Shown here one piece after another: positions 24,524 to 39,996 of a stretch of 64,000 nucleotides of DNA. Source of the DNA: Crocinitomicaceae bacterium (lineage in GTDB: Bacteria; Bacteroidota; Bacteroidia; Flavobacteriales_D; Crocinitomicaceae). A program made the position numbers and the translations under genes. The stretch covers positions 138,830 through 202,829 of the forward strand of contig JAKVAQ010000001.1 in assembly GCA_022447665.1 (NCBI GenBank), given 5' to 3'. Within the stretch, counting starts at the first letter, position 1, and the number at the start of each line of letters is the position of its first letter. Below the pieces are notes generated by a model, which worked only from the letters and a program-made list of their open reading frames with translations, was not told the DNA's origin and ran no database searches.

Positions 24524-24596
24524 TGTCCCATGGTGTAACTGGCAACACGTCTGGTTTTGGTCCAGAAGAGTCTAGGTTCGAGCCCTAGTGGGACAA
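24524..24596 (+). tRNA. tRNA-Gln (anticodon TTG)
   Basis: The 73-base cloverleaf is complete: acceptor TGTCCCA/TGGGACA, D arm GTGT/ACAC, anticodon stem TCTGG/CCAGA with loop TTTTGGT (anticodon TTG), and T arm CTAGG/CCTAG with loop TTCGAGC. The CCA end is not encoded in full. A 17-base copy of its 3' end occurs at 35886 and a diverged one at 38870. Confidence 0.95.
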
Positions 24597-24601
24597 CAGA
24601 A

Positions 24602-24636
24602 AAATCCTTTCCGAATTATCGGGAAGGATTTTTTGT
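24602..24636 (+). terminator. terminator of tRNA-Gln
   Basis: AATCCTTTCC and GGGAAGGATT form a stem around an eight-base loop, followed by a T-run, six bases after the tRNA. Confidence 0.85.
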
Positions 24637-24662
24637 TTTTACCCGCTAGGGCGAGAAGTTTA

Positions 24663-24680
24663 TCTCGAGCGAAGTCGAGA
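24663..24680. repeat. short REP-like palindrome
   Basis: TCTCGA and TCGAGA flank GCGAAG. This form of small hairpin is widespread between genes in Flavobacteriales genomes; it appears once in the window in this form. Confidence 0.4.
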
Positions 24681-24762
24681 GAAGCCCCATTTTAATGGGA
24701 AGTTCCAGGGCATTTTTGTACTCCATAGGTTTGTGGAGATTTGGTTGTTCAAAGTTTCAAAA

Positions 24763-24817
24763 GAGGGTGGCCAAAATGTTGGACGATTGAAAAAATTCTA
24801 TTCTCTGATACATCTTA
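24763..24817. repeat. dispersed repeat downstream of tRNA-Gln (copy 1)
   Basis: The core TTGAAAAAATTCTATTC plus TCTGATAC (24787-24811) recurs exactly at 35994-36018, and similarity extends about 60 bases upstream with gaps. The neighbouring AGGGTGGCCAAAATGTT recurs with changes at 38662-38692. Both other copies also lie near duplicates of the tRNA 3' end. Confidence 0.7.
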
Positions 24818-24867
24818 CAGCGATTTGGGTTCTGACGCTATTGAAGGTTCAAGTCCCCTAATCAGAC

Positions 24868-24948
24868 TCTTCCTCCACCGACTGAAACGATTGGACACGA
24901 AAAATCGCTGGAAGATTAACCACGAAAGTGAAAGGAGGTGGAGGAAGA
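24868..24948. repeat. strong inverted repeat with 12-base arms
   Basis: TCTTCCTCCACC at 24868-24879 is exactly complementary to GGTGGAGGAAGA at 24937-24948 across a 57-base interval that contains a small CACGAAAGTG hairpin. It lies between the tRNA-Gln terminator and the end of the decayed phosphatase gene. No transposase is adjacent. Confidence 0.65.
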
Positions 24949-24959
24949 TTATGGGTATT

Positions 24960-27900
24960 CTAAACTCTTATCCCAATTAAACAAACATCATCCACTTGCT
25001 CCAAGTCTTGTTTCCACTCATCAAAGGCTGCAGCAATTTTTTGCTCCTATTCCTTCATTGGCAATGATGCAACATCAAGGAGCATACGTTTCATTGGTTT
25101 GACTTTGAACTTCTTGCCTTTTTCCCCTCCAAACTGATCTTGAAAACCATCAGTCATTGCGTAAATAATATCACCTTTTTGAAGTTCAAATTCTCCTCCC
25201 TCAAAAGGAATATGGTCATTATCATGTTTCCCAACAGGCATTTTCTCTCCCTTAATGTCAATTAGTTCTCCTTCTCGTACAATCCAAATTGGATTGTTGG
25301 CTGCAACATACTCCAGTTTTGTTTTTTCTGGGTTTAGAATAAGCAATGAAGCGTCCATACCATCTTTTCCTCCTTCAGCCGAACCATCTTTCTTCAAGCG
25401 ATCAATTATAGTAACTCTAGCTTGATTAAATATATCTCCAGCCGCAGTTGCTCCATTCTCAACCGCTTTTTCAATTCCTGAAATATTGAGGATACTCATT
25501 ATAGCACCTGGAACTCCATGACCAGTACTATCTGCACAGCTCACAGCAAAGTTGCGATTGGCTAGTTCACCTGCCCAATAAAAATCACCCGAAACGGCCT
25601 CCTTTGGGTTGAAATAAACTAAATAGTTGTCTAAGTGCTTATCAAGTAATTCAGAAGTTGCCATGAAACTACGTTGAATACGTTCAGCATAATTGATATA
25701 GTCAGTAATTTCTTGGTGTGCTTCTTCAATGATTTCTTTCTGGTGTATAATGTCACTTGTGGCTTTTTCTACTTCATCCTCGAGTTCTTTTTGTCTTTTC
25801 CTGAGCTGTGAAGTTCGCCACCTAACTAGAAATAAAATTATTATTACACCTAAAAGAGTATATGTGATCAACATATAAAACTTTAGATACCAGGGCTTAG
25901 ATATTCTAATTGCTAGTTTTTTCTTGTCCGAAGATAAATGTGTGTTTAAATCACTAACCCTATATTCGAATTCATACTCCCTGCGAGAAAGGTTGTCATA
26001 ACTTATAGTGTTCGAACCTTCTAATCTTCTCCAATCATCATGTAAACCGTTCAACCGATACCCAACAATTAATTGTTCCGATTGTGGCAGTCTATCAGAC
26101 AATTCAAGAGTTATAGTATTTTAACTGAATTTCATCCAGACGAAAGGGGTTGATAGAGATTTTTTCGCCCTTAATGAAGAAACCAGAAATAATCAAGTTG
26201 TTTCTAATAGGTGATGTTCTATAATTTGGGTCAAATAAATAGAATCCTCCATCAGCCGGAAGAACTTTAAAGTCTTCAAAATTAGGCATTTTTGGACAGC
26301 CCAATCTTGTCGAATAAACGGGGTAGTTGTTAATTGGTAATAACGAACTATCCAAACAATTCAATAAGTACCATTTCTCGGTCTCACCTCTTATGAGAAA
26401 TTTTTCATCTTGTACATGATAGTAGTTTTCTACCCAACTGAAAGGCAGCGTTTGTTTGGATAGTGAAAATTCTTGGAATGCTGCATGATTTTGTAGGTTG
26501 AGTAATTGAAAGCCTCGTCCATATGTTGAAACATATGGGCCCTTTTCAGTAATATGAACGAATTGTGATGCTCCCATAGCATCCAACTCTTTCCTGACAA
26601 CTGTGAATTTGTTCTGAAGTTGGTCAAATCTAAAAAGCCCATATCCTTGATTGGTTATGTATATATCACCATTATACTCGAAGATATCATTTATTCTAGG
26701 ATCAGTAAAACTAGAATCTAAATTATCATGTGAATTATAATAATTAATACTCGGTTTTGTTTTCTTTAATTCATCAGAATCAAACATCATAATATTGTTA
26801 TTCGAGTTAGATCCATTCGAAATCACCCAAAATCTATCTTTAGAATCAACTAAAACACCAGTTGCATAAATTGGATTTAATTGACCACTGAGTACACTCA
26901 GGTCTATTTCATCAATTCTATAATCACGTGTATCAAATGATAGAATTTTTTCCTCGAAAAGAGGTATATAAATCATGTGCTTCTTTTGCGTATAACCCAA
27001 AAGGCGTCCGAAAATATCAGTCTCGTAAATCAAAGTTGAAATCTGATTATTAAAGTTTGTTTGCCAAACTTTTCCTGAACTCGAAATTGAGAAGACGAGA
27101 GTGTCATTAGAATAGAATGGTACTATTAATTCTTCACTGTCCTCAGAGATTTCTGTCTTTCTAAATTGCATCTCATTTTCTGTTGCACAAAATGCGCCTA
27201 GCCCCCAAGTTCCAATCCAGAGATTGTTAGAGCGGTCAAAATACATTGATTTATAAGCTCTGTGACCCCAAAAGGGAATATTGTGATTAATTGTTTGAAA
27301 TGTATCTGTTTTCGAGCACTGAATAATAAGTTCTCCTTGATTTGGTCGTAAAATACTTGCGATATTTTTTCCTTCGTTGTCAGGTAATAAATCCAAAGTA
27401 ATTAAGGTGTCATTTCTAAAAAACACTTTACTGACCATTGAGCTCAAATTGACAATTTGATGTCGTGTCCCACCAGATTCAAGGTTAGTCGCAAGTAGAA
27501 ATTCACGTGAATTGATTTTTCTCAAAATACTGTCATTTGAATTTGCTGTTTCAAGTTTAATCGGTTCTCTTAGTCCAGGTTCAAACCAAACGTGATTACT
27601 TCCAGCAATTAGCCAAATACTATCAAATTGGACTAAATTGGATTTCCCTTTTAACGAATAGATTCGATTCATTGAGTCTGCTATGATTTCATACACATAA
27701 GTAGAATCTTGATCAAAACTTGTTGCGACAAGTTCTTTACCACTTTCAATTACATTTGAGATGTATCCATCAATTTCAAATTTTCTGAAACTGCCATTTT
27801 TTAGGCCAACGAGCAAACTATCTTTATCATTTTAATACCAATATTCTCCATTAATGTAATAAAATACTGGTGTAGAATTAGAGTATCTAAATTTTGAGTC

Positions 27901-28326
27901 TTCAGGGGCTTTTTTGACTTGTTCAAATATACCTTCTTGGTAATTGAATTTAGCTACGCCAAAAGCTGAAATGCTATTAATCAATGAGTCTTCATCTAAA
28001 TATAAGTAGTTGAAGCCGTCATAAATACAATTTTCGGATCCTTCAATGTAAAAATGCTGTTCGAACTCACCATTCGCGTATCTTCCTATTCCATTTTGAG
28101 TAACTAACCAAAGAAAACCATATTTGTCTTCTTTGAAGTCGAGAACAGTATTCTCAAGTAGCCCAGATTCAACATTATAGCATTTGAAATCCATGTTTTG
28201 ACTCAGAACAGTGCTATTTGATTCAATTGATATATCCAGGTCATCCCTAGTTTTTATTTTACCGCAAGCGCAAAATCCCTAGGTCATGAGAATTAGGATA
28301 TAAGATTTGTGCGGAATAAGTTTCAT
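24960..28326 (-). pseudogene. decayed sensor / SpoIIE-type phosphatase (three stops and a frameshift)
   Basis: Read on the reverse strand from an ATG at 28326, this is one gene of about 1120 codons: a lipoprotein-like signal, a two-component-regulator type beta-propeller sensor (MDFKCYNVESGLLENTVLDF, KYGFLWLVTQNGIGRY, NNLWIGTWGLG), a Y_Y_Y domain (EYEFEYRVSDLN), one membrane segment (YMLITYTLLGVIIILFLV), a coiled coil and a SpoIIE/PP2C phosphatase domain (KEAVSGDFYWAGE, SCADSTGHGVPGAIMSILN, AMTDGFQDQFGG). It is broken by TAG at 28279-28281, TAA at 27832-27834, a frameshift near 26103-26125 and TAG at 25047-25049. The original C-terminus VDDVCLIGIRV is still readable to 24960. Remaining open pieces are 27832-28194, 26104-27816 and 25047-26102. 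Confidence 0.85.
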
Positions 28327-28485
28327 AGCTTCTAGACGAAGATAATAGTTTAAGCAACAGTGAGGTCTGATGTCTTTGAGTTTCTAATCCAGAACTAAAT
28401 AAATTTCACCCAAGATGCACCCAACTTGGGAAAAAGCCAATTCAATCAGCCTCAACTTTGTCCAGAACATTTAAAACAAATAGAT

Positions 28486-28695
28486 ATGGCAACGAGCATT
28501 ATTACGCCTGATGATCTGGAACAATTCAAATGGGAACTACTCGCAGACATCAAACAATTACTGGATAAAAAACAAGATAAAGTAGCACCGGTAAAAAAAC
28601 TATCACTATTAGTTTTGATGGTTTTTTTGATGCTAAAGATTTCGCCGTATTTTCTTCATTTTTTTTGCTCAAATTCAATGGGTTTTGAACGTTAA
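28486..28695 (+). pseudogene. fragment of a helix-turn-helix (excisionase-like) protein
   Basis: The first 36 residues from the ATG at 28486 (MATSIITPDDLEQFKWELLA, then DIKQLLDKKQ) match the N-terminal helix of small HTH proteins carried by Bacteroidota mobile elements. The helix-turn-helix itself, which should follow, is missing; after the PVKK segment the frame continues into unrelated hydrophobic sequence and stops. It is read as a truncated relic. In-frame codons upstream to 28426 lack family resemblance. Confidence 0.45.
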
Positions 28696-28844
28696 ATGTT
28701 GCTTGAATCCTTCCACTTAAATGACTTTACTTAGCATAGTGCGTAGGGCGATCAAGCCCAATGCGATCTTTGGGCATTGTCGTTACTCTTTTAGAAATCA
28801 CTTTATAAAGTTCATTGATTCTTAAACTGTTAAAGATTAAACTC

Positions 28845-28866
28845 TATATTTGCAACAATGTTGCAA
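28845..28866 (+). promoter_or_regulatory. -7 element overlapped by Zur/Fur-like palindrome
   Basis: TATATTTG at 28845-28852 matches TAnnTTTG. Overlapping its end, TTGCAAC and GTTGCAA (28850-28866) form a perfect seven-base inverted repeat with an AAT spacer. A repressor here would block transcription of the TonB receptor operon. The form suggests a Fur-superfamily metal regulator such as Zur; this is inference. Confidence 0.6.
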
Positions 28867-28934
28867 TAACTGCAATTGAAACTGCCTTAAGCAGATGTAA
28901 CAAAGACTAATTAAATAATAGTTTGCCGATAGTG

Positions 28935-31391
28935 ATGCAATCGCTGATAAACCAAATAACTCCCTTATTCAAGAATTCCTTTGGGCGAATATTTCTTTTT
29001 TCTTTGCTGTTGTTTTGCAACTATTCTTTCTCACAAGCAGACTCTTGTGACTACAACTTCAATGCTAATTTAAGAGATGCGGAATCGAATAAACCAATAC
29101 CTTTTGCAACAATTAAAGTCAAAGGTACTCAGAACAGTACTAAAACAGATGTCTCAGGTAATTTTGTAATCTCTGGATTATGTAATGGATATCAGTCGCT
29201 AATTATTTCTTGTTTTGGCTTTTGCGACTCAATTTGCGAGGCAAATCATCTGAAGAATGAGGGTAGTACAATTTACTTGCATAAAAAAGCTGAAGAACTT
29301 GAGAAAATTGTTATCCATGGGCATCAGGTAAAAGAAAAAGGAACAGAGACGATTGCTCAAACCCAAATTAATAAAATAACGATAAATTCTGATCATACTC
29401 AAAGTTTAGCTTCTCTAGTTTCTGATCAACAAGGGGTTACACTGATTTCTATGGGGTCCAATGTACAGCTTCCTGTAATACACGGATTATATGGCAGTCG
29501 TATCCTTATCTTGAATAATGGATTTAAGCATGGTTTTCAAAATTGGGGAGTAGATCACGCACCTGAAATTGATATAGCAGCAGCTGACAATATCACTATC
29601 ATAAAAGGGGCATCTGGTGTGAGGTATGGGGCTGAGGCAATGGGAGGAGCGATTATTGTAAACTCTAATCCATTATACTTTAAAGATAGATTCTATCTGA
29701 ATACTGGAGTTGGCTATCAAACAAATGGTCAAGGAATAAACGCAAATCTAGAATTTGGTGAAGGAAAAGATAAATGGAGTTATTTTTTCAATTGTAATTT
29801 CACAAAAATAGGAGATCGTTTTACACCAAACTATTCACTTACAAATACCGGAAAAGAAGAGAGCGCTGCAGCCTTTGGAACACGGTATAAGTTTAAAGAT
29901 TTAGATATAAAGTTTTATTACAGTTTTGTAGATCAAAATTTGGGTCTTCTTCGTTCTTCAATCGCCCATAGTGGCAACGCTTTTATTTATGCTATCAATT
30001 CTGATGTCCCGCCAATTGTAAATTCATTCGGTTTTAAAATTAATGCGCCGAATCAGTTAACAAAACATCGTTTGGGTAAACTAGAAATGAATTGGTTTTA
30101 TTCAAAAGATAGTAAGCTCACCTTTAGAACCGGTATACAGTTGAACAAACGCCAAGAGTACGATATCCGTATTGAAAGTGAAAAGCCTGTAATTGATTTA
30201 GATTTGCTTACAGCGGATTATCAATTAGAATGGAAGCATCCTAAATGGATGGAGCTAGAAGGCTTATTAGGGATTCAATATTTCAATCAGAATAATGACA
30301 ACAATCCCGGAACTGGTGCGACTCCATTTATACCTAACTACAATACAAATCGTGGAAGCATATTCCTGGTCGAAAGCAGAATATTCAATAAAAACATGCT
30401 GGAAGCTGGTTTAAGGGTAGATTACGAGTTGAATAATGTGCGAGGTAGACAACCTAACCAAGAGATTTTTCGAGACGAATATTCTTTTGTGAATATAACC
30501 AGTTCTCTTGGTTATAGCAGAAGCTTATCTCAAAAAAGTGTTTTCAGAGCAAACATAGGAACCGCATGGAGAACTCCAAACATGGCTGAATTGTATAGTT
30601 TTGGGCAACATGGTTTTAAAAATTCTTATGGCCTTCTTCGCTATTATCAAGATGGTGATGGAACCTTCAAGACAGATCAAGTCATTGAGGTAAAAGAGAG
30701 CCAAATTCGTCCAGAAAATGGCTATAAGTTTGTAGGTGAATTTGAATTTAGTACAAAGAAAATAAAGCAGGTTTTCACAGTATATACACATTTTATAAAA
30801 GAATATATTTTTAGCCGACCCTTAGCTGTAATTGGAACTGTGCGTGGCCCAATGCCTGTATTTATCTTTGACCAATCTGACGCACTCTTCATTGGTGGTG
30901 ATTACAGTTTCGGGATGAACTTCACAAAAAATCTAGATGGCATTTTCAGAGCGAGTTATCTGTGGTCGAAGAATATAACAGATTCTGACGTGCTCATTAA
31001 TCAGCCTCCTATCTCACTCAGTTGTGGTCTCAATTGGAACCATGAGAATTTTTGGATATTTAAAGACATACAATTTTCCATCAATCCTTCCTACACATTT
31101 CAACAATTTCAAGCACCAAGAACTGTTTCACCAGAAGATCTGATAGATGGTATTGAGGTCATAACACCTTCATCAGAAATTTTTGATTTTAAAAATGCTC
31201 CGGACGGTTACTTTCTATTAAATCTTGGATTGACTTCAAATATAAAACAATTTAACTTGGGTGTACAAGTCAATAATCTATTGAATACCAGTTATCGAGA
31301 CTATTTGAACGAGATGAGATATTTCGCAGATGAGATGGGCATTAATCTAATGTTCACAATGAGATACTCTTTCCAAAAACAAAATCAATAA
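28935..31391 (+). CDS. TonB-dependent outer-membrane receptor (putative metal, possibly zinc)
   Basis: From the ATG at 28935 (a TTG at 28923 is also possible) the product has about 818 residues. A signal peptide (ending YSFSQ) is followed by a carboxypeptidase-like regulatory domain (IPFATIKVKGTQNSTKTDVS), a plug domain (LASLVSDQQGVTLISMGSNV, then LPVIHGLYGSRILILNNG and IIKGASGVRYGAEAMGG) and a large barrel ending in an aromatic-rich strand. The plug resembles receptors of the ZnuD type. The next gene is a lipoprotein commonly paired with such receptors, and the promoter carries a Zur-like palindrome, together suggesting metal uptake; the substrate is not proven. It is intact within a decayed region. 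Confidence 0.85.
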   Translation: MQSLINQITPLFKNSFGRIFLFSLLLFCNYSFSQADSCDYNFNANLRDAESNKPIPFATIKVKGTQNSTKTDVSGNFVISGLCNGYQSLIISCFGFCDSICEANHLKNEGSTIYLHKKAEELEKIVIHGHQVKEKGTETIAQTQINKITINSDHTQSLASLVSDQQGVTLISMGSNVQLPVIHGLYGSRILILNNGFKHGFQNWGVDHAPEIDIAAADNITIIKGASGVRYGAEAMGGAIIVNSNPLYFKDRFYLNTGVGYQTNGQGINANLEFGEGKDKWSYFFNCNFTKIGDRFTPNYSLTNTGKEESAAAFGTRYKFKDLDIKFYYSFVDQNLGLLRSSIAHSGNAFIYAINSDVPPIVNSFGFKINAPNQLTKHRLGKLEMNWFYSKDSKLTFRTGIQLNKRQEYDIRIESEKPVIDLDLLTADYQLEWKHPKWMELEGLLGIQYFNQNNDNNPGTGATPFIPNYNTNRGSIFLVESRIFNKNMLEAGLRVDYELNNVRGRQPNQEIFRDEYSFVNITSSLGYSRSLSQKSVFRANIGTAWRTPNMAELYSFGQHGFKNSYGLLRYYQDGDGTFKTDQVIEVKESQIRPENGYKFVGEFEFSTKKIKQVFTVYTHFIKEYIFSRPLAVIGTVRGPMPVFIFDQSDALFIGGDYSFGMNFTKNLDGIFRASYLWSKNITDSDVLINQPPISLSCGLNWNHENFWIFKDIQFSINPSYTFQQFQAPRTVSPEDLIDGIEVITPSSEIFDFKNAPDGYFLLNLGLTSNIKQFNLGVQVNNLLNTSYRDYLNEMRYFADEMGINLMFTMRYSFQKQNQ

Positions 31392-31417
31392 ATAACAAAT
31401 GTTTAATTAAATAAAAA

Positions 31418-32026
31418 ATGAGAAAAATGAATCAATACGCTATTCTAGCAACCTTATCATGCGCTGTTGCAGTCGCAAGTTGTAAAAAAGACGAAGTAGT
31501 TCCAGAAGAAGAAAATGTAGTAGAAGTTTTCACGGATGTAAAGCTTATTTTCACGAATGCCGCTGATCCAAGTGATGTTGTTGAAGCTAGGGCTCAAGAC
31601 CCTGATGGTGAAGGTGTTCAAGGCTTAGCAATTTTGGATGAAATTACTTTAGGTGTTGATAAGACCTACAACTTAACTTATGAAATTGCAAACAACCTCA
31701 CTGTTCCGGGAGAGGATATTGGTGCTGAGATTCTTGAAGAAGATAATGAACACCAGTTCTTCTATACTTTTACGAATAACGCTTTCTCGAATCCGGCTGG
31801 AAATGGAAATGTTGATAATGCATCTGATCCCCTGAATTATAGCGACCTAGATGAAAATGGTCTTCCTGTTGGATTATTGACTCAATGGACAACACCTTCT
31901 ACTGCATTAAGTGGTGGAGTGTTTACTGCTCGTTTGCAGCATCAACCTGATGTAAAAACAGCTTCCTCGGGTTCAAATGACGGAGACACTGATTTTGATT
32001 TAACTTTTGTTTTGAATATTCAGTAA
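31418..32026 (+). CDS. lipoprotein paired with TonB receptor
   Basis: The 202-residue product has a lipoprotein signal ending AVASCKKDE (Cys about residue 22). The mature part is acidic and beta-rich: FTDVKLIFTNAADPSDVVEA, then DEITLGVDKTYNLTYEI, EEDNEHQFFYTF and FTARLQHQPDVK. This family regularly follows TonB receptors in Bacteroidota and is often named only as a type 1 periplasmic-binding-fold-like protein. It probably helps capture the receptor's ligand at the cell surface. It lies 26 bases downstream and ends before a strong terminator, closing a two-gene operon. Confidence 0.7.
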   Translation: MRKMNQYAILATLSCAVAVASCKKDEVVPEEENVVEVFTDVKLIFTNAADPSDVVEARAQDPDGEGVQGLAILDEITLGVDKTYNLTYEIANNLTVPGEDIGAEILEEDNEHQFFYTFTNNAFSNPAGNGNVDNASDPLNYSDLDENGLPVGLLTQWTTPSTALSGGVFTARLQHQPDVKTASSGSNDGDTDFDLTFVLNIQ

Positions 32027-32055
32027 ATCATGATTTAAATTAAAGGAAAGAAGAC

Positions 32056-32098
32056 AAAACACTCGGTCCTTTGCGAATAGAGCTGAGTGTTTTTTTTT
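32056..32098 (+). terminator. terminator of TonB receptor operon
   Basis: AAACACTCGG pairs with CTGAGTGTTT (one mismatch) around a loop of about 16 bases, followed by eight Ts. Confidence 0.85.
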
Positions 32099-32253
32099 AA
32101 TCAAAGTAATTGTTTTTTTCCTTATATTTATTCTGGCAACTTTTAACCATCATTATGCTCAAAGAACAGACTCTTGCAGATCAATAATAGTTGATTTGAA
32201 GATATCAAAAATCGCATCTTTAATAATCCAGTTAGTTAAAAATTTGAATTCTT

Positions 32254-33360
32254 ATGAAAATTAAAATAGTAGTATTACTGGGCATTTTATTTTTCCTTAT
32301 ATGTCCGAAATCCCTTGTTGCAAATACAAACTGTACAGGTATTACGTTAAACAGTAGTGATGGCTCATTCATACATGCAAGAACCATGGAATGGGGTGCT
32401 TTCAATATCAAACCAGAATTATTGGTTTTCCCGAGAAATTATGCATTTGAAGGTCAGCTACCAATTGACAAACCTGGAATGAAATGGGAAGGAAAATATG
32501 GTTTTATTGGCATAAATGCTTTAGGAGATACACGTGTAGCTGACGGATTAAATGAAAAAGGCTTGGCTGTTTCGGTATTGTATTTGCCTGGATACGCTTC
32601 CTATCAGGCTTTCGATTCAACAGCTGTAGATTCAACTATTAGCCCAAGTGAATTCCCCTTGCTTTTGCTGTCTACTTGTCAATCAGTAAAGGAGGTGAGG
32701 GTTATACTTAATAAGGTAAAAGTGGTTGGAAAGCCTGAAAAAGAGCTAGGAGGAATAGTCGCTCCTTTTCATTACATGGTTTCTGATCAAACAGGAGAAA
32801 GTGTTATTGTTGAGTACACGAAAGAAGAACTACACATTTACGATAACGCTGTTGGGGTAATAACAAATAGTCCAGAATATCCCTGGCATCTCACTAATTT
32901 AAAAAACTACATCACATTGAAGACAGAAGAAGCTCATCCTGTAAATGTAGGAGAGTTAACATTGAAACCTTTCGGTGCAGGGAGTGGTATGTTGGGTTTA
33001 CCCGGAGATTATACACCACCATCACGTTTTGTGAGAGCTACTGTTATGCGTAACTCGGTAATTGAACTTGAAGATGGAGAGCGAGCAATTTCGGAAGCTT
33101 TTCGTATTTTGAATAATTTTGATATCCCAATTGGAACAATGGGTGTAGACCATGATCCATCAGTTTTAGGAGATACGCAATATACAACAGCTGCAGATAC
33201 TAAATCAATGCGCTACTATTATCGCACAATGAACAACCATAGAATTCGTGTTCTCGATTTGAAAAAAATTGATTTTACTTCTAAAGAATTGACAAGAAGG
33301 CTTCTAGATATTGAACTAGCTCAAGACTATGAGTTCATAGAAATTGAGACTTCGAAATAA
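32254..33360 (+). CDS. linear amide C-N hydrolase (choloylglycine hydrolase / penicillin acylase family)
   Basis: The 368-residue protein has a signal peptide ending SLVANTN, leaving Cys27 near the mature N-terminus as the Ntn-hydrolase nucleophile. HARTMEWG near residues 42-49 carries the conserved Arg and the R-x-x-(D/E)-W signature; FIGINALGDTRVADGLNEKG and GVITNSPEYPWHLTNLKNY (substrate-side Asn) are further family blocks. Such enzymes cleave linear amide bonds, including bile salts, penicillin V and N-acyl homoserine lactones. The natural substrate is unknown and export to the periplasm is inferred. No partner gene is adjacent. Confidence 0.9.
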   Translation: MKIKIVVLLGILFFLICPKSLVANTNCTGITLNSSDGSFIHARTMEWGAFNIKPELLVFPRNYAFEGQLPIDKPGMKWEGKYGFIGINALGDTRVADGLNEKGLAVSVLYLPGYASYQAFDSTAVDSTISPSEFPLLLLSTCQSVKEVRVILNKVKVVGKPEKELGGIVAPFHYMVSDQTGESVIVEYTKEELHIYDNAVGVITNSPEYPWHLTNLKNYITLKTEEAHPVNVGELTLKPFGAGSGMLGLPGDYTPPSRFVRATVMRNSVIELEDGERAISEAFRILNNFDIPIGTMGVDHDPSVLGDTQYTTAADTKSMRYYYRTMNNHRIRVLDLKKIDFTSKELTRRLLDIELAQDYEFIEIETSK

Positions 33361-33409
33361 GGCAGCTTTAATATCATTAATAAAAGTCTTAGACTACTTT
33401 CCTTAGAAG

Positions 33410-33544
33410 AAGGATGAATTTGTATTGCATGCTCATGAACTACTTAATGACTATAAAGGCCATTTAGGTTTTGAAATTGTGGCCATCTCAATAGATCTTG
33501 TAGTAATCGTTGCAAATTTAATTAATGGAAATCCTATTATTTGA
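33410..33544 (+). pseudogene. relic of a TlpA/AhpC-type thioredoxin-like gene
   Basis: A 44-codon open stretch reads KDEFVLHAHELLNDYKGHLG, then FEIVAISIDLVV, and ends at a TGA. The LxxxYKxxGFEIVAISID pattern is typical of thioredoxin-like TlpA proteins just after their CxxC helix, but the CxxC part and the remainder are absent. No start codon is evident. This is a short match and is rated accordingly. Confidence 0.3.
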
Positions 33545-33567
33545 ATTTCAATAAGTACGTTTTACTG

Positions 33568-33603
33568 AATCTCCCATCAAAAAACTTTAATGGGAGATTT
33601 TTG
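33568..33603 (+). terminator. Rho-independent terminator
   Basis: AATCTCCCAT and ATGGGAGATT form a perfect ten-base stem around a 12-base loop, followed by a T-run. It lies just after the thioredoxin-like relic and was probably its terminator. Confidence 0.85.
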
Positions 33604-33681
33604 TTTGCGACTCTTGCTAATTAACTTTTATTTGAAATTTTTTGATTCTTATAGGGCATACATTTGGGTTATACCTAAATT

Positions 33682-34609
33682 CTGAATCGCCTTTTATTAA
33701 TCTTATTCTTATTTTTTCCAACTTTTTCTTCTGCCTTCATGCATCCTAATGAAGAAGAATTATTGTGCTTTGAATTCAATAAGTTTTATTGTCAAAAGAT
33801 ATATTCTTTTGATGACACTATAATAGCATTTCCTTTTAAAAATTGCAGTGGTCGTGAACTCCAGATAAAAGAAATAAGCTGTAACTACCTCTATAAAGAT
33901 CAAGTGTTTTATGATCAAAGAAATTGGAAAGATTCAATTATACCAAGTGCTCATATGGATACTATTTTCTTTAGTAAAAAAAGATCTCTTTGATGCTAGA
34001 GACGAATTGACTGATGCTTCTTTTACCATTTCATTTGTGGGTGAGCATACCCTTCAGTATCTAAATATTTTCATAGATTTTGTTCCAAATAATGGCAGTT
34101 CAGGGGTTTCGCCTATTCATTTGCCTACAGTGTCAAGAGGTGATAGTATTATTTTCTCTGCCGTGATTGAGAACTCAGGATCTTCTCCGGTAGCATTCAA
34201 ATCAAGTACTTATAATAGAGGTAGGCATGCTCATCAAAAAGTAAGGTTAATAGAAGTTGGAAAAATAATTGTTCCGGCAGAAGACTCGCTTAAAGTTAAG
34301 TTTATGTTGTACACGGATAATTTATTGGATGAATACTCCGGTACGTTTGACTTTGAGTCTAATGAAGATTTAAGAAGGTATCACAGAATTTCTATTCCAT
34401 TTGATGGAAGGCCTATATCTGAAGGTTATCCGAGTATTAAGTTTGATTCTCTAGTTCTTAACAAATACATTAATAAAGGTGATCAATGTGAATTCAACTT
34501 TTGTTTTGAAAATAATGAGGATACGCCTCTTTTTATTCAAAATGCTAAAACTAGTTGTGGCTGTTTGATGGCTAGCTGGCCCAGAGAGCCAATTTTGGCC
34601 GGAGAATGA
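33682..34609 (+). pseudogene. frameshifted and truncated DUF1573 protein gene
   Basis: The reading frame is preserved upstream of the ATG at 33739 to a CTG at 33682, giving a perfect signal peptide (NRLLLILFLFFPTFSSAF), which suggests the original ATG mutated to CTG. The frame then shifts in a run of seven A near 33975-33990: FFSKKRSL ends at a stop, while the sense continues as LFDARDELTDASFTISF in the other frame. The C-terminal part reaches the family signature AKTSCGCLMASWPREPILAGE-type block and stops at 34609, without the usual remainder. DUF1573 proteins are exported immunoglobulin-like proteins of unknown role. Confidence 0.7.
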
Positions 34610-34890
34610 ACTGTTGAAAATGATTAACAAAGCACTAGGTATGAATAGACTCTTCATTATTGCTTAATATTAATTGTAATACAAGTCGCTATAAACAGAC
34701 TTCTAATAGACGTGTATTATCCTAAGTTTACAGTTTCAATATCAAAATAATTAGGTTTCATACGAAACCAGCTTTATTTAATTGGCTCTTCATTTAGTCT
34801 GGTGTTCTTAATCACTTTTAAATCAAGGTTAGGTCGACAGAATAAATTTTGAAATCTGTCTCGAAGGAGATCTGATAGTTTTAAGCAATT

Positions 34891-35154
34891 ATGAAAAAGT
34901 TTAAACTATTATTAACCTTGGGAGTGTCTATTTTGGCATTTTCATGCTCCAAAGATTATTCATGCAAATGTGATGTAAAACACGAACAAACAGGCCCAGT
35001 GTTCACGGAAACCAGAGAATGGGATCAATCATTTACTTTTTCGGGCAAAGAAGACGATGTGAGATCAGAATATTCTTCTCTCAGTTTTAGTGAATCTTAT
35101 AAAGATGGTGCTGAGTATGATCATAAAATCGAACAAGACTGCCCATTTCAGTAA
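34891..35154 (+). CDS. small lipoprotein
   Basis: The 87-residue product has a lipoprotein signal ending ILAFSCSK (Cys about residue 20) and a short mature part with several further Cys (DYSCKCDVKH, QDCPFQ) that could form disulfides. The family is not recognised; similar tiny lipoproteins are frequent in Flavobacteriales. A terminator follows 27 bases after the stop. A purine-rich AAGGAG lies about 25 bases before the ATG. Confidence 0.65.
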   Translation: MKKFKLLLTLGVSILAFSCSKDYSCKCDVKHEQTGPVFTETREWDQSFTFSGKEDDVRSEYSSLSFSESYKDGAEYDHKIEQDCPFQ

Positions 35155-35180
35155 AAACAAATACTTTTTTTTTGTTTTCT

Positions 35181-35207
35181 ATGGGGCTTTAATGCCCCAT
35201 TTTTATT
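35181..35207 (+). terminator. terminator after small lipoprotein gene
   Basis: ATGGGGC and GCCCCAT flank TTTAAT and run into a T-rich tail. Confidence 0.8.
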
Positions 35208-35281
35208 TGTAATAACCAATACTTAATATATATAATTCATAAGGAATACATCTTTTCTTGTATTTCTATTATCTTACGTAA

Positions 35282-35629
35282 TCGGCAGACTACTCTGCAT
35301 CGGCAATTATTATAGATGCTGAGGATATTTCTATTCAAGAAGAGATTTTGAATATTTGACCTGATTTAAGATTGAACTGCTGGATAAAGTCTTGCCAATG
35401 TATATGTGTTTATGGTATCAAGCTCAAATACCCAGATCCCGCAAATCTTGAAGAATTCAAAAAAGACAATTTTGAGTTTTTCAAAAACTTACTATTCCTT
35501 AGTTTAAAATATCCTTCATGTTCTATAGCGATGATTGATGAATACGAACATAATGATTTATCCAGCTACCGAGGATTCATTTTGAAAGCGGGAAATATTT
35601 ACTTAAACGAAATGGGAGATTTTAGCTAA
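35282..35629 (+). pseudogene. degenerate hypothetical gene (in-frame stop)
   Basis: An open frame of 85 codons from 35372 (PDPANLEEFKKDNFEFF, then SIAMIDEYEHNDLSSYRG) is continuous, across one TGA just upstream, with a coding-like stretch reading SADYSASAIIIDAEDISIQ. A single in-frame stop inside a once longer gene is the simplest reading. No family is recognised. Confidence 0.35.
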
Positions 35630-35632
35630 ATA

Positions 35633-35758
35633 ATGGATAAACATTTACACGAATTTAATTCACGCAAGGTTGACTTCCATGACTGTTATGAACAAAGGCT
35701 GAAGCGATTATGCGACCAACTGGGAATTAAAGAAATAGCACTATTAACTTTTAATTAG
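35633..35758 (+). CDS. short hypothetical ORF (41 residues)
   Basis: An ATG four bases after the previous stop opens a charged 41-residue frame (MDKHLHEFNSRKVDFHDCYE, then QRLKRLCDQLG). It may be a tail fragment of the degenerate gene before it. No family is recognised. Confidence 0.2.
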   Translation: MDKHLHEFNSRKVDFHDCYEQRLKRLCDQLGIKEIALLTFN

Positions 35759-35885
35759 AAACTGTGAAAACGTGGTCATTTCAATAATATTAAAAATTCA
35801 TAAAAAAGTCTCCTTGCATTTACAACGTGATCTATTATCTTGATACCAACAAGCTCATATCTACTATTAACGCTATAAAACAATT

Positions 35886-35902
35886 AGCCCTAGTGGGACA
35901 AC
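35886..35902. repeat. copy of tRNA-Gln 3' end (putative att site)
   Basis: AGCCCTAGTGGGACAAC is identical to positions 24581-24597, the last part of the T arm, the acceptor strand and the first base after the tRNA. The rest of the tRNA is absent. A terminator hairpin follows, as it does after the intact tRNA. This is the expected form of a distal att site for an element integrated into the tRNA. Confidence 0.75.
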
Positions 35903-35904
35903 TT

Positions 35905-35936
35905 GAAAAGCTCAATCGAAAGGTTGGGCTTTTTTC
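35905..35936 (+). terminator. terminator after tRNA 3' end copy
   Basis: AAAAGCTCAATC and GGTTGGGCTTTT pair with mismatches around a GAAA loop, followed by Ts. It differs in sequence from the terminator of the intact tRNA. Confidence 0.6.
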
Positions 35937-35993
35937 GTGGTTCATGGTTTTGTGGAAGTTTCGTTGCTGAAAATTTTAAGAGATGTTGGATGT

Positions 35994-36018
35994 TTGAAAA
36001 AATTCTATTCTCTGATAC
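35994..36018. repeat. dispersed repeat (copy 2)
   Basis: This is an exact 25-base match to 24787-24811, with weaker similarity upstream. It overlaps the end of the reverse-strand ORF at 36005 and probably cuts that gene. Confidence 0.7.
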
Positions 36019-36271
36019 TTCTTACATCATTTTGCACTATAACTTCACCAAAAGTCTGAAAATCATATAGATTTGAACTTTTTAAAACAAGTTCACTAGA
36101 GCCGAGTTTGTTTAACAGGTCAAATTTACTCAGACTTCTGAAGCTCTGAAAATTTCCCACTTGAAAATTAATTGCAGTTGAAAATTCAATTCTGGAGTTG
36201 ATCGAATCATTCATTTGGACATTTCGGAAAAATGCCAAGAAGACTGTAAAAGAAAAACAAATGTATTTCAT
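36005..36271 (-). CDS. hypothetical exported protein, probably truncated
   Basis: The 88-residue product has a signal-peptide-like start (MKYICFSFTVFLAFFRNVQM) and a body (INSRIEFSTAINFQVGNFQS) with no recognised family. Its last codons lie inside the dispersed repeat copy at 35994-36018, so the original 3' end has probably been replaced. It is placed 23 bases after the DUF1772-like gene on the same strand. Confidence 0.4.
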   Translation of the reverse strand: MKYICFSFTVFLAFFRNVQMNDSINSRIEFSTAINFQVGNFQSFRSLSKFDLLNKLGSSELVLKSSNLYDFQTFGEVIVQNDVRSIRE

Positions 36272-36294
36272 TGTTCTTAATTAGTTTATCTGTT

Positions 36295-36744
36295 CTAACC
36301 TCTAGTCAACAAAATCAAGAGGCATAGAATAATAACCTCGTTTATCACCCTAAATGAATGCCACCTTTCCCACTTGTTTAATTTTCCCTGTAGCTCAGTT
36401 GGCTTGAATTGGCCTCTGTAGAATTCTGAATTTAAACGCTTAAAAATTTTGTAATAGATGATTAGATAAAGGAATATCAGCGTTGTGATAAGTAAAATAA
36501 TTTCATTTTGAAAAGGATTATTTTTATCACTTGACACCACAGAAGCAAGGATAGAAAGAATGAAAGCAATCGTTATTGGCGTGAAAAACGCAGTCAGTCT
36601 TGGACCAATCCCTTTATAGTGATCTATGAAGTCAGCAACAGAAATTGATTTCCAATGAGGCACAAGAACAATGCTTTCAAACAAATGAGCAGAAATCAGC
36701 AAAATGAGGTTGATTATGGAGACAGATGAAATTAATTCTTCCAT
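36295..36744 (-). CDS. DUF1772-like integral membrane protein
   Basis: The 149-residue protein has four hydrophobic segments. The first helix carries ISAHLFESIVLVPHW, the middle GIGPRLTAFFTPITI, and the last region WERWHSFRVINEVII, the pattern of the DUF1772/anthrone-oxygenase-like family. No catalytic role can be assigned. It overlaps the upstream strictosidine synthase-like gene by one base, indicating translational coupling. Confidence 0.65.
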   Translation of the reverse strand: MEELISSVSIINLILLISAHLFESIVLVPHWKSISVADFIDHYKGIGPRLTAFFTPITIAFILSILASVVSSDKNNPFQNEIILLITTLIFLYLIIYYKIFKRLNSEFYRGQFKPTELQGKLNKWERWHSFRVINEVIILCLLILLTRG

Positions 36745-37820
36745 TATAGTTTGATTCTAGATACGTATGGCACAACATCTCCTCCTAGATACAAATGTCC
36801 ATTATGTTCTTTTAGGGCCCCAGATTCAGTAACTAATTCACCCGCGGGGTCAAACAAGCATCGAACGATATCTCCTTCGGATGTTATTTCAGCAACCATT
36901 CCAAACTTTTCAGGTTTAGGTTTTAAGAATTCTGGCATCGCATAGATTATTTTCTTTATCCTGGGTTTAGGGTGAGCCTTATCAAGTTGATCATTCCTTT
37001 TTGTGGTAAATCCGACCCAATAATTACCATTTTCACGCCTTGAAATATTGTTCGGGAATCCGGGTAAATTTTCCAGAAGAATCTCACTTGTCCCCCTTTT
37101 TTCCCCTTTTATCCAGTATTTTAAAATTCTATAACGGGATGTTTCAGAGATCAAAATGAAATCTTCATTCTTTGAAATCTCCAAACCATTTCCAAAATAA
37201 TTTCCCGCAGATATCGTCTCAACTTTTTTAGTATTCGGATCATAACAAAAAACACCACCTGTTTTTTTCATCTCTAAAATAATTTGGTTTACGTAATCCC
37301 AAGATGTCTGTTGAATGGTTGACATGTTCGCGAAATAAATTTTCCCGTCTGTTGAAATTTTTAGACCTGTTCCCATAAGTATCGGTTCATCTGGAGCAGT
37401 ATGTGTCAATAGGGTATCAATTTTCTTATCTTTCGATATCTTGATGAGACCAACTCCGTTCAACAGAGCTATTATGTTTTCGTCCTTATCGAAAGCCATT
37501 CCGGTAATCCAAGAATCTGTCTTTAAATAAATCTCGGCTTGATTTCGCGGAGAGATTTTGATGATCGCACCCTTGGAAAAGTCTTTTTCTCCAACATGAC
37601 TACCGCAGTAGATATTGCCTTCTTTGTCTACTAGAAATTCTTCAGCTCCATAATAATTTAATAAATGGACCTTCTCTCCATGGGAAAGGTCATCGTTCAA
37701 TTCGTAAACACCTTGGAAATCAGGTTTAAGCGGAGGTGACCAACTTGCTGGTTGAATTTTGCAACCCCAAAAAATTGTGGTTAAAAAAAGGCTTAGGGTA
37801 TAGATAAATGCTTTTTTCAT
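36744..37820 (-). CDS. strictosidine synthase-like / SMP-30-type propeller lipoprotein
   Basis: The 358-residue product has a lipoprotein signal ending IFWGCK. The body is a six-bladed propeller of the strictosidine synthase/SMP-30 type: SWITGMAFDKDENIIALLNG, GNGLEISKNEDFILISETSR, then YRILKYWIKGEKRGTSEI and LPGFPNNISRRENGNYWVG. The family includes lactonases and arylesterases that depend on calcium; the substrate is unknown. It lies between a Crp/Fnr regulator gene and the DUF1772-like gene on one strand. Confidence 0.8.
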   Translation of the reverse strand: MKKAFIYTLSLFLTTIFWGCKIQPASWSPPLKPDFQGVYELNDDLSHGEKVHLLNYYGAEEFLVDKEGNIYCGSHVGEKDFSKGAIIKISPRNQAEIYLKTDSWITGMAFDKDENIIALLNGVGLIKISKDKKIDTLLTHTAPDEPILMGTGLKISTDGKIYFANMSTIQQTSWDYVNQIILEMKKTGGVFCYDPNTKKVETISAGNYFGNGLEISKNEDFILISETSRYRILKYWIKGEKRGTSEILLENLPGFPNNISRRENGNYWVGFTTKRNDQLDKAHPKPRIKKIIYAMPEFLKPKPEKFGMVAEITSEGDIVRCLFDPAGELVTESGALKEHNGHLYLGGDVVPYVSRIKL

Positions 37821-37899
37821 GATCTTGTTCGTTAAATTGTTTTAACAAAGGTCAATCAGAAAAAACCTAAATCCATTTACATATGTAAAGGAATTGGAA

Positions 37900-38514
37900 T
37901 CAACCCTTTTTTCTTCTTATCCTGCTCAGCTGTGTCGGAGAAATCCCTAAGTAAGAAGCAATGTGATATTGTGATACGTATAGTTCGATTTTGGGAAAGG
38001 ATTCTTTCATGATTTTGTAACGCTCAATAGCTTCAAGCAGAGCCATTTCAATTTCTTTTTTTTCTTTTTCCATGAAATAGTGTTCTGCTATTTTCCTTCC
38101 TAATCTCTCCAAATCATGATGTTTTCCGAATAGCTTGTTTATCTCGGAATAGTCTGCAACGAGAACTTCGCAATCAATTAATGCTTGTTGTCCTACTAGA
38201 TTTTTTTCTTTTGAGATTAATGATGTATATGCACCTATAATCGAAGGCCCAGTAAAAAATTGTTTGTTATATTCCTTACCCTCTTCGTTTGTAAAATATG
38301 CTCTCACTATTCCTTTGGTTAAGAAACCAATTTCGTTAGCGACGTAGCCCTCTTTTGCAAAATGATCCTTTTTTCTCAAGGATGTAGGTCTAAATAAAGA
38401 AAGAAGCTCACTTAAAGCGATGTCAGATATTGGTGCAATGCTCTTTAGATATTCTGAGAAAAGCTCAAATTGATCTGTATTTTGTTCAGAATGCATAGCT
38501 ATGAAGTTATGCAA
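37900..38514 (-). CDS. Crp/Fnr family transcriptional regulator
   Basis: The 204-residue protein has an N-terminal cyclic-nucleotide-binding-like domain (LRKKDHFAKEGYVANEIGFL, then GIVRAYFTNEEGKEYNKQFF) and a C-terminal winged helix (QYHIASYLGISPTQLSRIRR). No Cys cluster for an iron-sulphur centre is present. It is the first gene of the reverse-strand group with the propeller lipoprotein (80 bases downstream) and may control it. Confidence 0.88.
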   Translation of the reverse strand: MHNFIAMHSEQNTDQFELFSEYLKSIAPISDIALSELLSLFRPTSLRKKDHFAKEGYVANEIGFLTKGIVRAYFTNEEGKEYNKQFFTGPSIIGAYTSLISKEKNLVGQQALIDCEVLVADYSEINKLFGKHHDLERLGRKIAEHYFMEKEKKEIEMALLEAIERYKIMKESFPKIELYVSQYHIASYLGISPTQLSRIRRKKG

Positions 38515-38937
38515 ATCTGATCAACGTCGATTCTTTATGTCGCTATTTTTCATTTTGATTTTCGGAATATTTATATCCTTCAACAATTTAAGAATACATT
38601 TGCTCAATGCAATTACATTTTTCGGTTTCGTAGCATATTTTTGTTCTTACCACTAGTGTGTAAGGGTGGCTAAAATGTTCCCCGAATGAAAATCACAACC
38701 TCTAATACCGGAGACTATAAATTCCCTTTTTCCTGACTTCTTGATAAAATATCGGAAAATAATATAAGGCTATAAAGGGCTATTGTAAGTTTTAGAAACC
38801 ACTACTACCACTAGAATTGTGACAGGCCACCTTCAAAATTAGTGTGTTTTGAAAACGTTTTGTTTATGACCTAGTAGGACAACAGGAAAGCTCATCAGTA
38901 ATGGTGGACTTTTTTTATTATATATTGGCCTATACTT
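38515..38937. other. 423-base intergenic region with degenerate tRNA/repeat remnants
   Basis: No gene is seen. A diverged copy of the tRNA-downstream repeat (AAGGGTGGCTAAAATGTTC) lies at 38662-38692. A 17-base relic of the tRNA-Gln 3' end (one mismatch) lies at 38870-38886, followed by a decayed hairpin and T-run to about 38920. Confidence 0.6.
38870..38886. repeat. diverged copy of tRNA-Gln 3' end
   Basis: CCTAGTAGGACAACAG matches the tRNA 3' end and flank at 24583-24598 with one change. As at the other two copies, a hairpin with T-run follows. Confidence 0.6.
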
Positions 38938-39996
38938 ATGAATATTCTACGTTATCCAAAATCCAGCGACCGCTCATTAAAAGCTTGGAATGCTTCTGAC
39001 GAATTAATAATTCGCACAGTTTTAGAGGATAATGTTGATATAGAAGACTGTATATTACTTCATGATTTGTTCGGTTATTTAAGTTGTCACCTCAACGATC
39101 ATAAACCTCAAGCTGTAATAACTTTTGCTAGTCAAGAATTTTCGATTCAAAAAAATTCGGAGAATAATTCATGCTCAAAAATTCAGCCCAAAAATATTTT
39201 AGAACATTGGACAACTTCTAAATCGGCTTTAATGCGAATTCCAAAATCCTTGGGTTTATTCGAGTTTTACTTAGCGCGACTTTGTGAAATTTTAGGTAAA
39301 GATGGAGTTGTCTATTGCGGATTTATGACTAAGTATTTTACGCCTAGTTGGCTCAAATTAGCAGAGAAATATTTTGAAGAAGTTAATCAAAGCTTAGCGC
39401 ATAAAAAAAGCCGTTTGCTCATTCTAAAAAAACCCATAAAATCAAAGCTCAATTATATCGAGTCCTTTAAGGATGATAATGACATAGAATGGCAACAATA
39501 TTTAGGAGTATTTTCTTCTGGGAGAATAGATAGTGCCAGCCGCTTCTTTATGGAACATTTAGAGGTGCCAACTGGAGATATTAAAGTAGTTGATGTAGGC
39601 TCTGGGAATGGCGTACTAAGTAAACATGTACAAACGAAAAATCCAGATGCAGAGATTCATTTGGTTGATGATAATTCTTTGGCTACACTCTCGAGTAAAT
39701 TGAATATTAAAGGAGATCAAATACATCATCATTTTTCACGAAACCTAGATTTCCTCGATGACAATTCATGCGATTTGGTTATTTCGAACCCACCATTTCA
39801 TTTTGAATATGAATTAAATCTTGACGTTGCTTTTCGAACGTTCAAAGATGCCTATCGTATTCTTAAAAAAGGAGGAGAATTATGGGTTGTAGCTAATAAT
39901 AACCTGGCATATAAGCCACAAATGTTAAAGTCTTTTGATAATTGTGTTGTGATTGCACAAAACAGAAAGTTTAATATTTATCGCTGCAAAAAGTGA
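38938..39996 (+). CDS. rlmG: RlmG/RsmC-type rRNA guanine-N2 methyltransferase
   Basis: The 352-residue protein has the two-domain layout of RlmG/RsmC enzymes. The N-terminal half contains RYPKSSDRSLKAWNASDELI and LMRIPKSLGLFEFYLARLCE. The C-terminal half is a class I methyltransferase with VVDVGSGNGVLSKHV for S-adenosylmethionine and SNPPFHF near residues 283-289, the NPPF motif of base amino-group methylation. The end (NNNLAYKPQMLKSF, NRKFNIYRCKK) matches RlmG, which makes m2G1835 in 23S rRNA in E. coli. The choice of RlmG over RsmC rests on the N-terminus and is less certain than the family. The stop abuts a lipocalin-like relic. Confidence 0.78.
   Translation: MNILRYPKSSDRSLKAWNASDELIIRTVLEDNVDIEDCILLHDLFGYLSCHLNDHKPQAVITFASQEFSIQKNSENNSCSKIQPKNILEHWTTSKSALMRIPKSLGLFEFYLARLCEILGKDGVVYCGFMTKYFTPSWLKLAEKYFEEVNQSLAHKKSRLLILKKPIKSKLNYIESFKDDNDIEWQQYLGVFSSGRIDSASRFFMEHLEVPTGDIKVVDVGSGNGVLSKHVQTKNPDAEIHLVDDNSLATLSSKLNIKGDQIHHHFSRNLDFLDDNSCDLVISNPPFHFEYELNLDVAFRTFKDAYRILKKGGELWVVANNNLAYKPQMLKSFDNCVVIAQNRKFNIYRCKK

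Follow-up and report, generated by a model that had tools for sequence, protein, structure and literature searches.

How a tRNA gene comes to be followed by two further copies of its own 3′ end, with no integrase gene in between, is the question raised by a 64,000-nucleotide (nt) stretch of the genome of a Crocinitomicaceae bacterium (hereafter the window; GenBank assembly GCA_022447665.1, contig JAKVAQ010000001.1, positions 138,830 to 202,829). The gene is that for tRNA-Gln, and the three tails enclose two consecutive segments, A and B. We conclude, with a probability of roughly 0.85, that these are two tandem, integrase-less, and decaying integrative elements of 11.3 and 3.0 kb, accreted at the tRNA-Gln 3′ end in the manner of cis-mobilizable elements (CIMEs).

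Copies of the tRNA-Gln 3′ end

The target gene, tRNA-Gln(TTG), lies on the plus strand at positions 24524–24597, as revealed by ARAGORN, Rfam, and a genome search. The latter found a single copy in the whole genome, a 4.06-Mb draft of 84 contigs. The last 17 nt of the gene, AGCCCTAGTGGGACAAC (24581–24597, plus strand), constitute the first attachment (att) core and the attL of segment A. The original prediction, made from the sequence without database searches, reported an exact 17-base copy at 35886. This second core (35886–35902, plus strand), located between A and B, is indeed identical. The predicted one-mismatch copy at 38870 stands for the 16-nt frame CCTAGTGGGACAACAG; over the full 17 nt, the third core (38867–38883, plus strand), which is the attR of B, deviates at three positions. 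At that stringency, dinucleotide shuffles gave an expectation of 0.03 tail matches in the window. The cores at 24581, 35886, and 38867 thereby flank the segments and share the end of the target gene. When up to three mismatches were allowed, just two further tail matches appeared genome-wide, both on contig C35, and matches to the reversed control pattern were as frequent; no other good tail copy was found in the 4.06 Mb. The core-to-core lengths of 11,305 nt for A (24598–35885) and 2,981 nt for B (35903–38866) agree with the approximately 11.3 and 3 kb of cargo claimed previously.

A hairpin with a T-run had also been described for each site. The terminator-like hairpin directly 3′ of the tRNA (24599–24634, plus strand) passed a strict terminator scan. 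Those behind the second core (35908–35935, plus strand) and the third core (38887–38916, plus strand) are imperfect, contain G-U pairs, and failed the same scan; hairpins of both types also occur behind tails in the relative G008. An RNA-family origin of the repeats was rejected, as the tRNA was the sole Rfam match.

Two further observations concern the tails. A palindrome resembling repetitive extragenic palindromes, TCTCGAGCGAAGTCGAGAGA, is inserted between the tail of A and the adjoining left-end module (24635–24690); near copies reside on contigs C33 and C9, and palindromic inserts also split one tail copy each in G077 and G078. G002, G014, G043, and G124 each have a further tRNA-Gln tail, preceded by CGGTAAG and equipped with its own hairpin, only about 110–150 nt past the tRNA (copy starts at +131 in L045, +91 in L057, +103 in L132, and +95 in L155, counted from the tRNA end). 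These closely spaced tails constitute a small recurrent duplication and are possibly minimal remnants.

End modules and integrases in relatives

The 25-base exact repeat predicted at 24787 and 35994 was recovered and had no counterpart in shuffled sequences. It forms the core of a longer left-end (LE) module, in which A and B share 88% identity over 52 nt and 73% over ~120 nt. In A, the module (24665–24956, plus strand) comprises a decayed hairpin and a conserved non-coding stretch, the strong match extending from 24712 to 24956 (~245 nt); in B it is truncated (35938–36034, plus strand). A search of 240 family genomes revealed clear LE copies outside the window in just G008, G127, and G072, which represent three other genera. 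With the LE of A, two G008 copies share 89–90% identity and the G127 copies about 75%; G072 carries two weaker copies. Each copy lies immediately behind a tRNA-Gln tail with its hairpin, the tail in front of the second G127 copy being degenerate, and in A the palindromic insert stands between tail and module. For B, the tail, the hairpin, and the start of LE align as one block to G008 (82% over 153 nt). A right-end (RE) region of B (38664–38866, plus strand) is ~70% identical over 262 nt to a pre-tail stretch on contig C139 of G008, the alignment covering ~200 nt before the third tail and continuing through tail and hairpin. Neither phage nor plasmid relatives of LE were found, an IMG/VR search with two LE patterns gave no match, and no intact parent element with the LE and RE of the window was encountered.

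The second half of LE (24865–24951, plus strand; seven copies aligned) contains an 11–12-bp inverted repeat, CTTCCTCCACC ... GGTGGAGGAAG, and is unusually conserved across genera when the window is compared with G008. It folds as a hairpin, the energy of which is unexceptional (z of −0.4 as DNA and −1.9 as RNA), and a hairpin function was rejected on these grounds. In G072 and G127, extra DNA separates the two LE halves, with a 162-aa open reading frame (ORF) in G072, as if this were an insertion point.

As the original prediction had stated, no integrase is visible in either segment: neither an integrase ORF nor a remnant was detected in A or B (best E 0.5). The genome encodes three PF00589 proteins, two with the size and domain make-up of Xer and one 277-aa SAM_4 protein, and an arm-binding domain is present in none of the three proteins of this 84-contig draft. 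Because an integrase is absent from the segments and an arm-binding integrase from the genome, the elements look stranded, and any helper integrase is presumably absent as well. As a side observation, L078 on contig C35 (2537–3740) encodes a 277-aa Phage_int_SAM_4 tyrosine recombinase followed by 2.3 tandem 59-nt units bearing a palindrome, an arrangement that looks integron-like.

A family-wide scan revealed additional same-strand tail copies in several genomes. Tails bound elements of 7.46 kb (G026), 28.65 kb (G042), 29.7 kb (G047), and 45.6 kb (G039), and duplicated tRNA-Gln genes enclose 26.3 kb (G041), 11.3 kb (G056), 5.5 kb (G010), and 4.8 kb (G091) of DNA. Integrase genes of one type lie on the plus strand 207–344 nt past tRNA-Gln in G039, G041, G042, G047, G127, and G025, and another one 199 nt past it in G018. 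A further type, on the minus strand, is located just left of the right-hand tRNA or tail copy in G026, G010, G091, and G056, and in G072 beside its tail. Those tested contain Arm-DNA-bind_5, Phage_int_SAM_5, and Phage_integrase domains. Thus, elements that carry an integrase at the same tail show what writes the pattern seen in the window. Together with the tail-specific end modules, they support the earlier proposal of a double integration into the tRNA.

Two integrases of G072 were considered as cognates of LE and rejected. The one next to an LE copy on contig C135 has its own TCGCGAG arm pair and adjoins another tRNA tail, and the one on contig C76 belongs to an element with CGGCAC arms that stops at the tail on the left of LE. 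The LE copy on C135 also adjoins a methyltransferase/PLD/XRE gene set, whose function was judged by eye. The tRNA-Gln integrase element of G127 (L090, 1–13087) contains a helicase/PLD system and HipA-like genes, likewise assigned by eye, and would represent defence-type cargo at the same hotspot.

The ends of the integrase elements share a further trait, namely a 7-nt word that is repeated at a 12-nt period and is identical at both ends. The words are TGTCACC in G042, GTGTCCT in G047, GTGACCT in G039, TGTCGGG in G026, and TCGGCAC in G072; the integrase-less ends in G008 carry GGTGGCC. A both-ends score of at least 26 was reached by 6/10 elements of relatives, compared with 8 among 1500 randomly drawn pairs, and periods other than 12 nt gave no comparable excess of end-repeat pairs. 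Among all loci scanned, the pattern GGTG[TGA]CC-N5-GGTG[TGA]CC matched tRNA-Gln/tail sites exclusively. In the window, LE of A contains the pair GGTGGCC-AAAAT-GTTGGAC (24766–24784, plus strand) and RE of B the decayed pair GGTGGCT-AAAAT-GTTCCCC (38665–38683, plus strand); in LE of B, the first word of the pair is deleted. These pairs are candidate arm-type sites of an integrase, and, judging from the sequence, the end modules of the window appear to resemble the ends of integrase-bearing elements. In G127, one integrase element has its ends on two contigs; a 19-nt arm stretch is common to both ends (maximum for random pairs, 13), and an LE module follows immediately behind the right tail of this element. 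Unrelated elements can therefore be stacked at one site.

Origin of the two segments

According to the favoured reading, elements with an arm-binding tyrosine recombinase would have inserted by recombination between their attP and the 17-nt 3′ tail of tRNA-Gln. Every insertion would have restored the tRNA and shifted the displaced tail and terminator downstream. A and B, two elements with related ends, would now stand in tandem. Decay would then have removed the integrase from both segments, the right end from A, and part of the left-end pair from B, while the cargo of A would be breaking up. What may be left are att sites and passenger genes for a TonB receptor, an enzyme of the choloylglycine-hydrolase family, a sensor phosphatase, and a Crp-type regulator, the machinery being gone. 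We infer both the order in which A and B were inserted and their present stranded state. The original prediction had left open whether the elements were decayed or moved by another means. With the right end of A and part of the left-end pair of B lost, cargo genes broken, and the genome search turning up no arm-binding integrase, the evidence favours the former, that is, decayed tyrosine-integrase elements.

Several points weigh against this reading. As a draft, the assembly comprises 84 contigs, and an integrase may sit in one of its gaps. The right end of A matches no known element end and is not recognizable as such; the boundary at 35886 is defined by the core copy and the LE module of B behind it. 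The repeat pairs of the window fail the strict both-ends score, because the word in LE of B is deleted and the pair in RE of B is decayed. Neither segment exhibits a GC contrast. The comparison set consists of genera other than that of the window and so offers neither an empty nor an occupied A/B site from the same genus. The right flank is also ambiguous. The first gene past the third tail, encoding an MTS-family methyltransferase (38938–39996, plus strand; Pfam PF05175), is probably an older neighbour of tRNA-Gln, because in G004 a methyltransferase gene with 59% identity sits 3.1 kb past the tRNA. The interval in G004 holds other genes and no tail, and the ancestral right flank is therefore not pinned down. 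A methyltransferase contig of G008 was rejected as a right junction, as it has no tail there.

The strongest rival is that the LE-bearing elements form a non-autonomous family that never had an integrase of its own and relies for its movement on co-resident CTnDOT-type integrases, which would act in trans via the core and the LE/RE pairs. We consider this possible but unlikely. The LE-bearing stretches of the window, G008, and G127 have no integrase of their own nearby, and both G127 and G072 also hold integrase-bearing elements at the same core. LE is, moreover, well kept between genera for non-coding DNA (89–90%), and the arm word GGTGTCC is common to the LE of G072 and the integrase-bearing element of G047. 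The co-resident integrase elements, however, carry other repeat-pair words than LE does (ATCAGACAACA in G127, CGGCAC in G072), and no single contig outside the window spans an entire LE element, so that the missing part could hold an integrase. A more specific version, which we regard as distinctly unlikely, takes LE and RE as marks of a separate cassette-like, non-autonomous family of Crocinitomicaceae-related bacteria that is stacked at tRNA-Gln and trans-moved by several unrelated CTnDOT-type integrases.

Two further explanations were considered. LE could be an old chromosomal flank of tRNA-Gln that was copied by segmental duplication and is no element end; it always stands behind a tail and terminator, and in G008 directly after the tRNA. 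Yet it is 89% identical between genera, whereas sequence immediately 5′ of the tRNA can barely be aligned; it is missing from G004, which belongs to the same genus as G127, and it carries a 12-nt-period pair as integrase elements do at both ends. We therefore deem an old flank improbable. That the tails are fossils of tandem tRNA-Gln copies, which arose by duplication and decay while the intervening genes arrived independently, appears very improbable, even though tandem or duplicated tRNA-Gln genes do occur in G019, G034, G095, G010, G091, and G056. The window repeats just the last 17 nt of the gene and none of the 57 nt before them. Moreover, the same 16–17 nt bound integrase elements in G026, G042, G047, and G039, and both kinds of end module, LE and RE, go with the tails.

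As decayed integrative elements, A and B have known counterparts. CIMEs and the tandem accretion of integrative and conjugative elements (ICEs), integrative and mobilizable elements (IMEs), and CIMEs have been described for ICESt1-related elements of Streptococcus thermophilus (review PMC5704250). As in a CIME, att sites are kept, integration and transfer genes are lost, and passengers are left; as in ICE/IME/CIME accretion, several elements are stacked at one tRNA or gene end via a shared att core. Unlike the ICESt1-related CIMEs, the window belongs to Flavobacteriales, the site is tRNA-Gln, the right end of A is lost, and no intact partner was found in the same genome. With the IntCTnDOT/NBU1 subgroup of Bacteroidetes tyrosine recombinases (PMC8138268), the integrases at the tRNA-Gln tail of relatives share the domain make-up, and the candidate end repeat pairs look like arm sites; in contrast to IntCTnDOT elements, the segments of the window encode no arm-binding integrase. 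From tRNA-targeted genomic islands, with their duplicated tRNA 3′ end, restored tRNA, and displaced terminator, the locus does not differ substantially, apart from being two small decayed islands in tandem. CTnDOT itself is not known to target tRNA-Gln. The locus is what tRNA-targeted integration followed by decay ordinarily produces, and its kind is well known. Its interest lies in the end sequences, since tail, end module, and 12-nt-period pair alone let an integrase-less island be traced to a mechanism. Such a signature could locate integrative elements left stranded in Bacteroidota genomes in which integrase searches come up empty, and it could predict the arm sites of CTnDOT-type integrases.

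Cargo and flanks

The cargo of A begins with a sensor/SpoIIE-phosphatase gene (25047–28194, minus strand), which is broken into three ORFs according to the reading frames and the Pfam matches SpoIIE, Y_Y_Y, and Reg_prop. On the plus strand follow genes for a TonB-dependent receptor (28923–31391; Pfam), a lipoprotein-like protein without a Pfam match (31418–32026), and a hydrolase of the choloylglycine/penicillin-V-amidase family (32254–33360; Pfam PF02275, E 1.5e-80; below the cut-off in NCBIfam), and a DUF1573 gene (33739–34609; Pfam) that is apparently split across two overlapping frames. B encodes, on the minus strand, a small membrane protein without a family match in Pfam or NCBIfam (36295–36744), a strictosidine-synthase-like/SMP-30-like propeller protein (36744–37820; Pfam), and a Crp/Fnr-type regulator (37900–38514; Pfam). 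PADLOC detected no defence genes in A or B, and relaxase or mobilisation domains were absent from the Pfam matches of the window proteins.

On the left, a gene for a TMEM260-like (DUF2723) membrane protein is divergent from tRNA-Gln (20225–24244, minus strand; Pfam PF11028) and occupies the same position in 51 of the 64 relatives with enough flank. The content to the right of tRNA-Gln differs in essentially every relative. Relatives thus do not carry the same genes in conserved order, and the comparison of the locus, as called for by the original prediction, gave variable cargo next to a conserved opposite flank. A search of one paper collection for tRNA-Gln islands in Flavobacteria found none. 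In genus g7, the DNA past the right tail of the 45.6-kb element of G039 aligns ~0.6 kb after tRNA-Gln in G040, which retains just a stub that bears an arm-like pair but lacks an integrase. This stub is a parallel case of decay.

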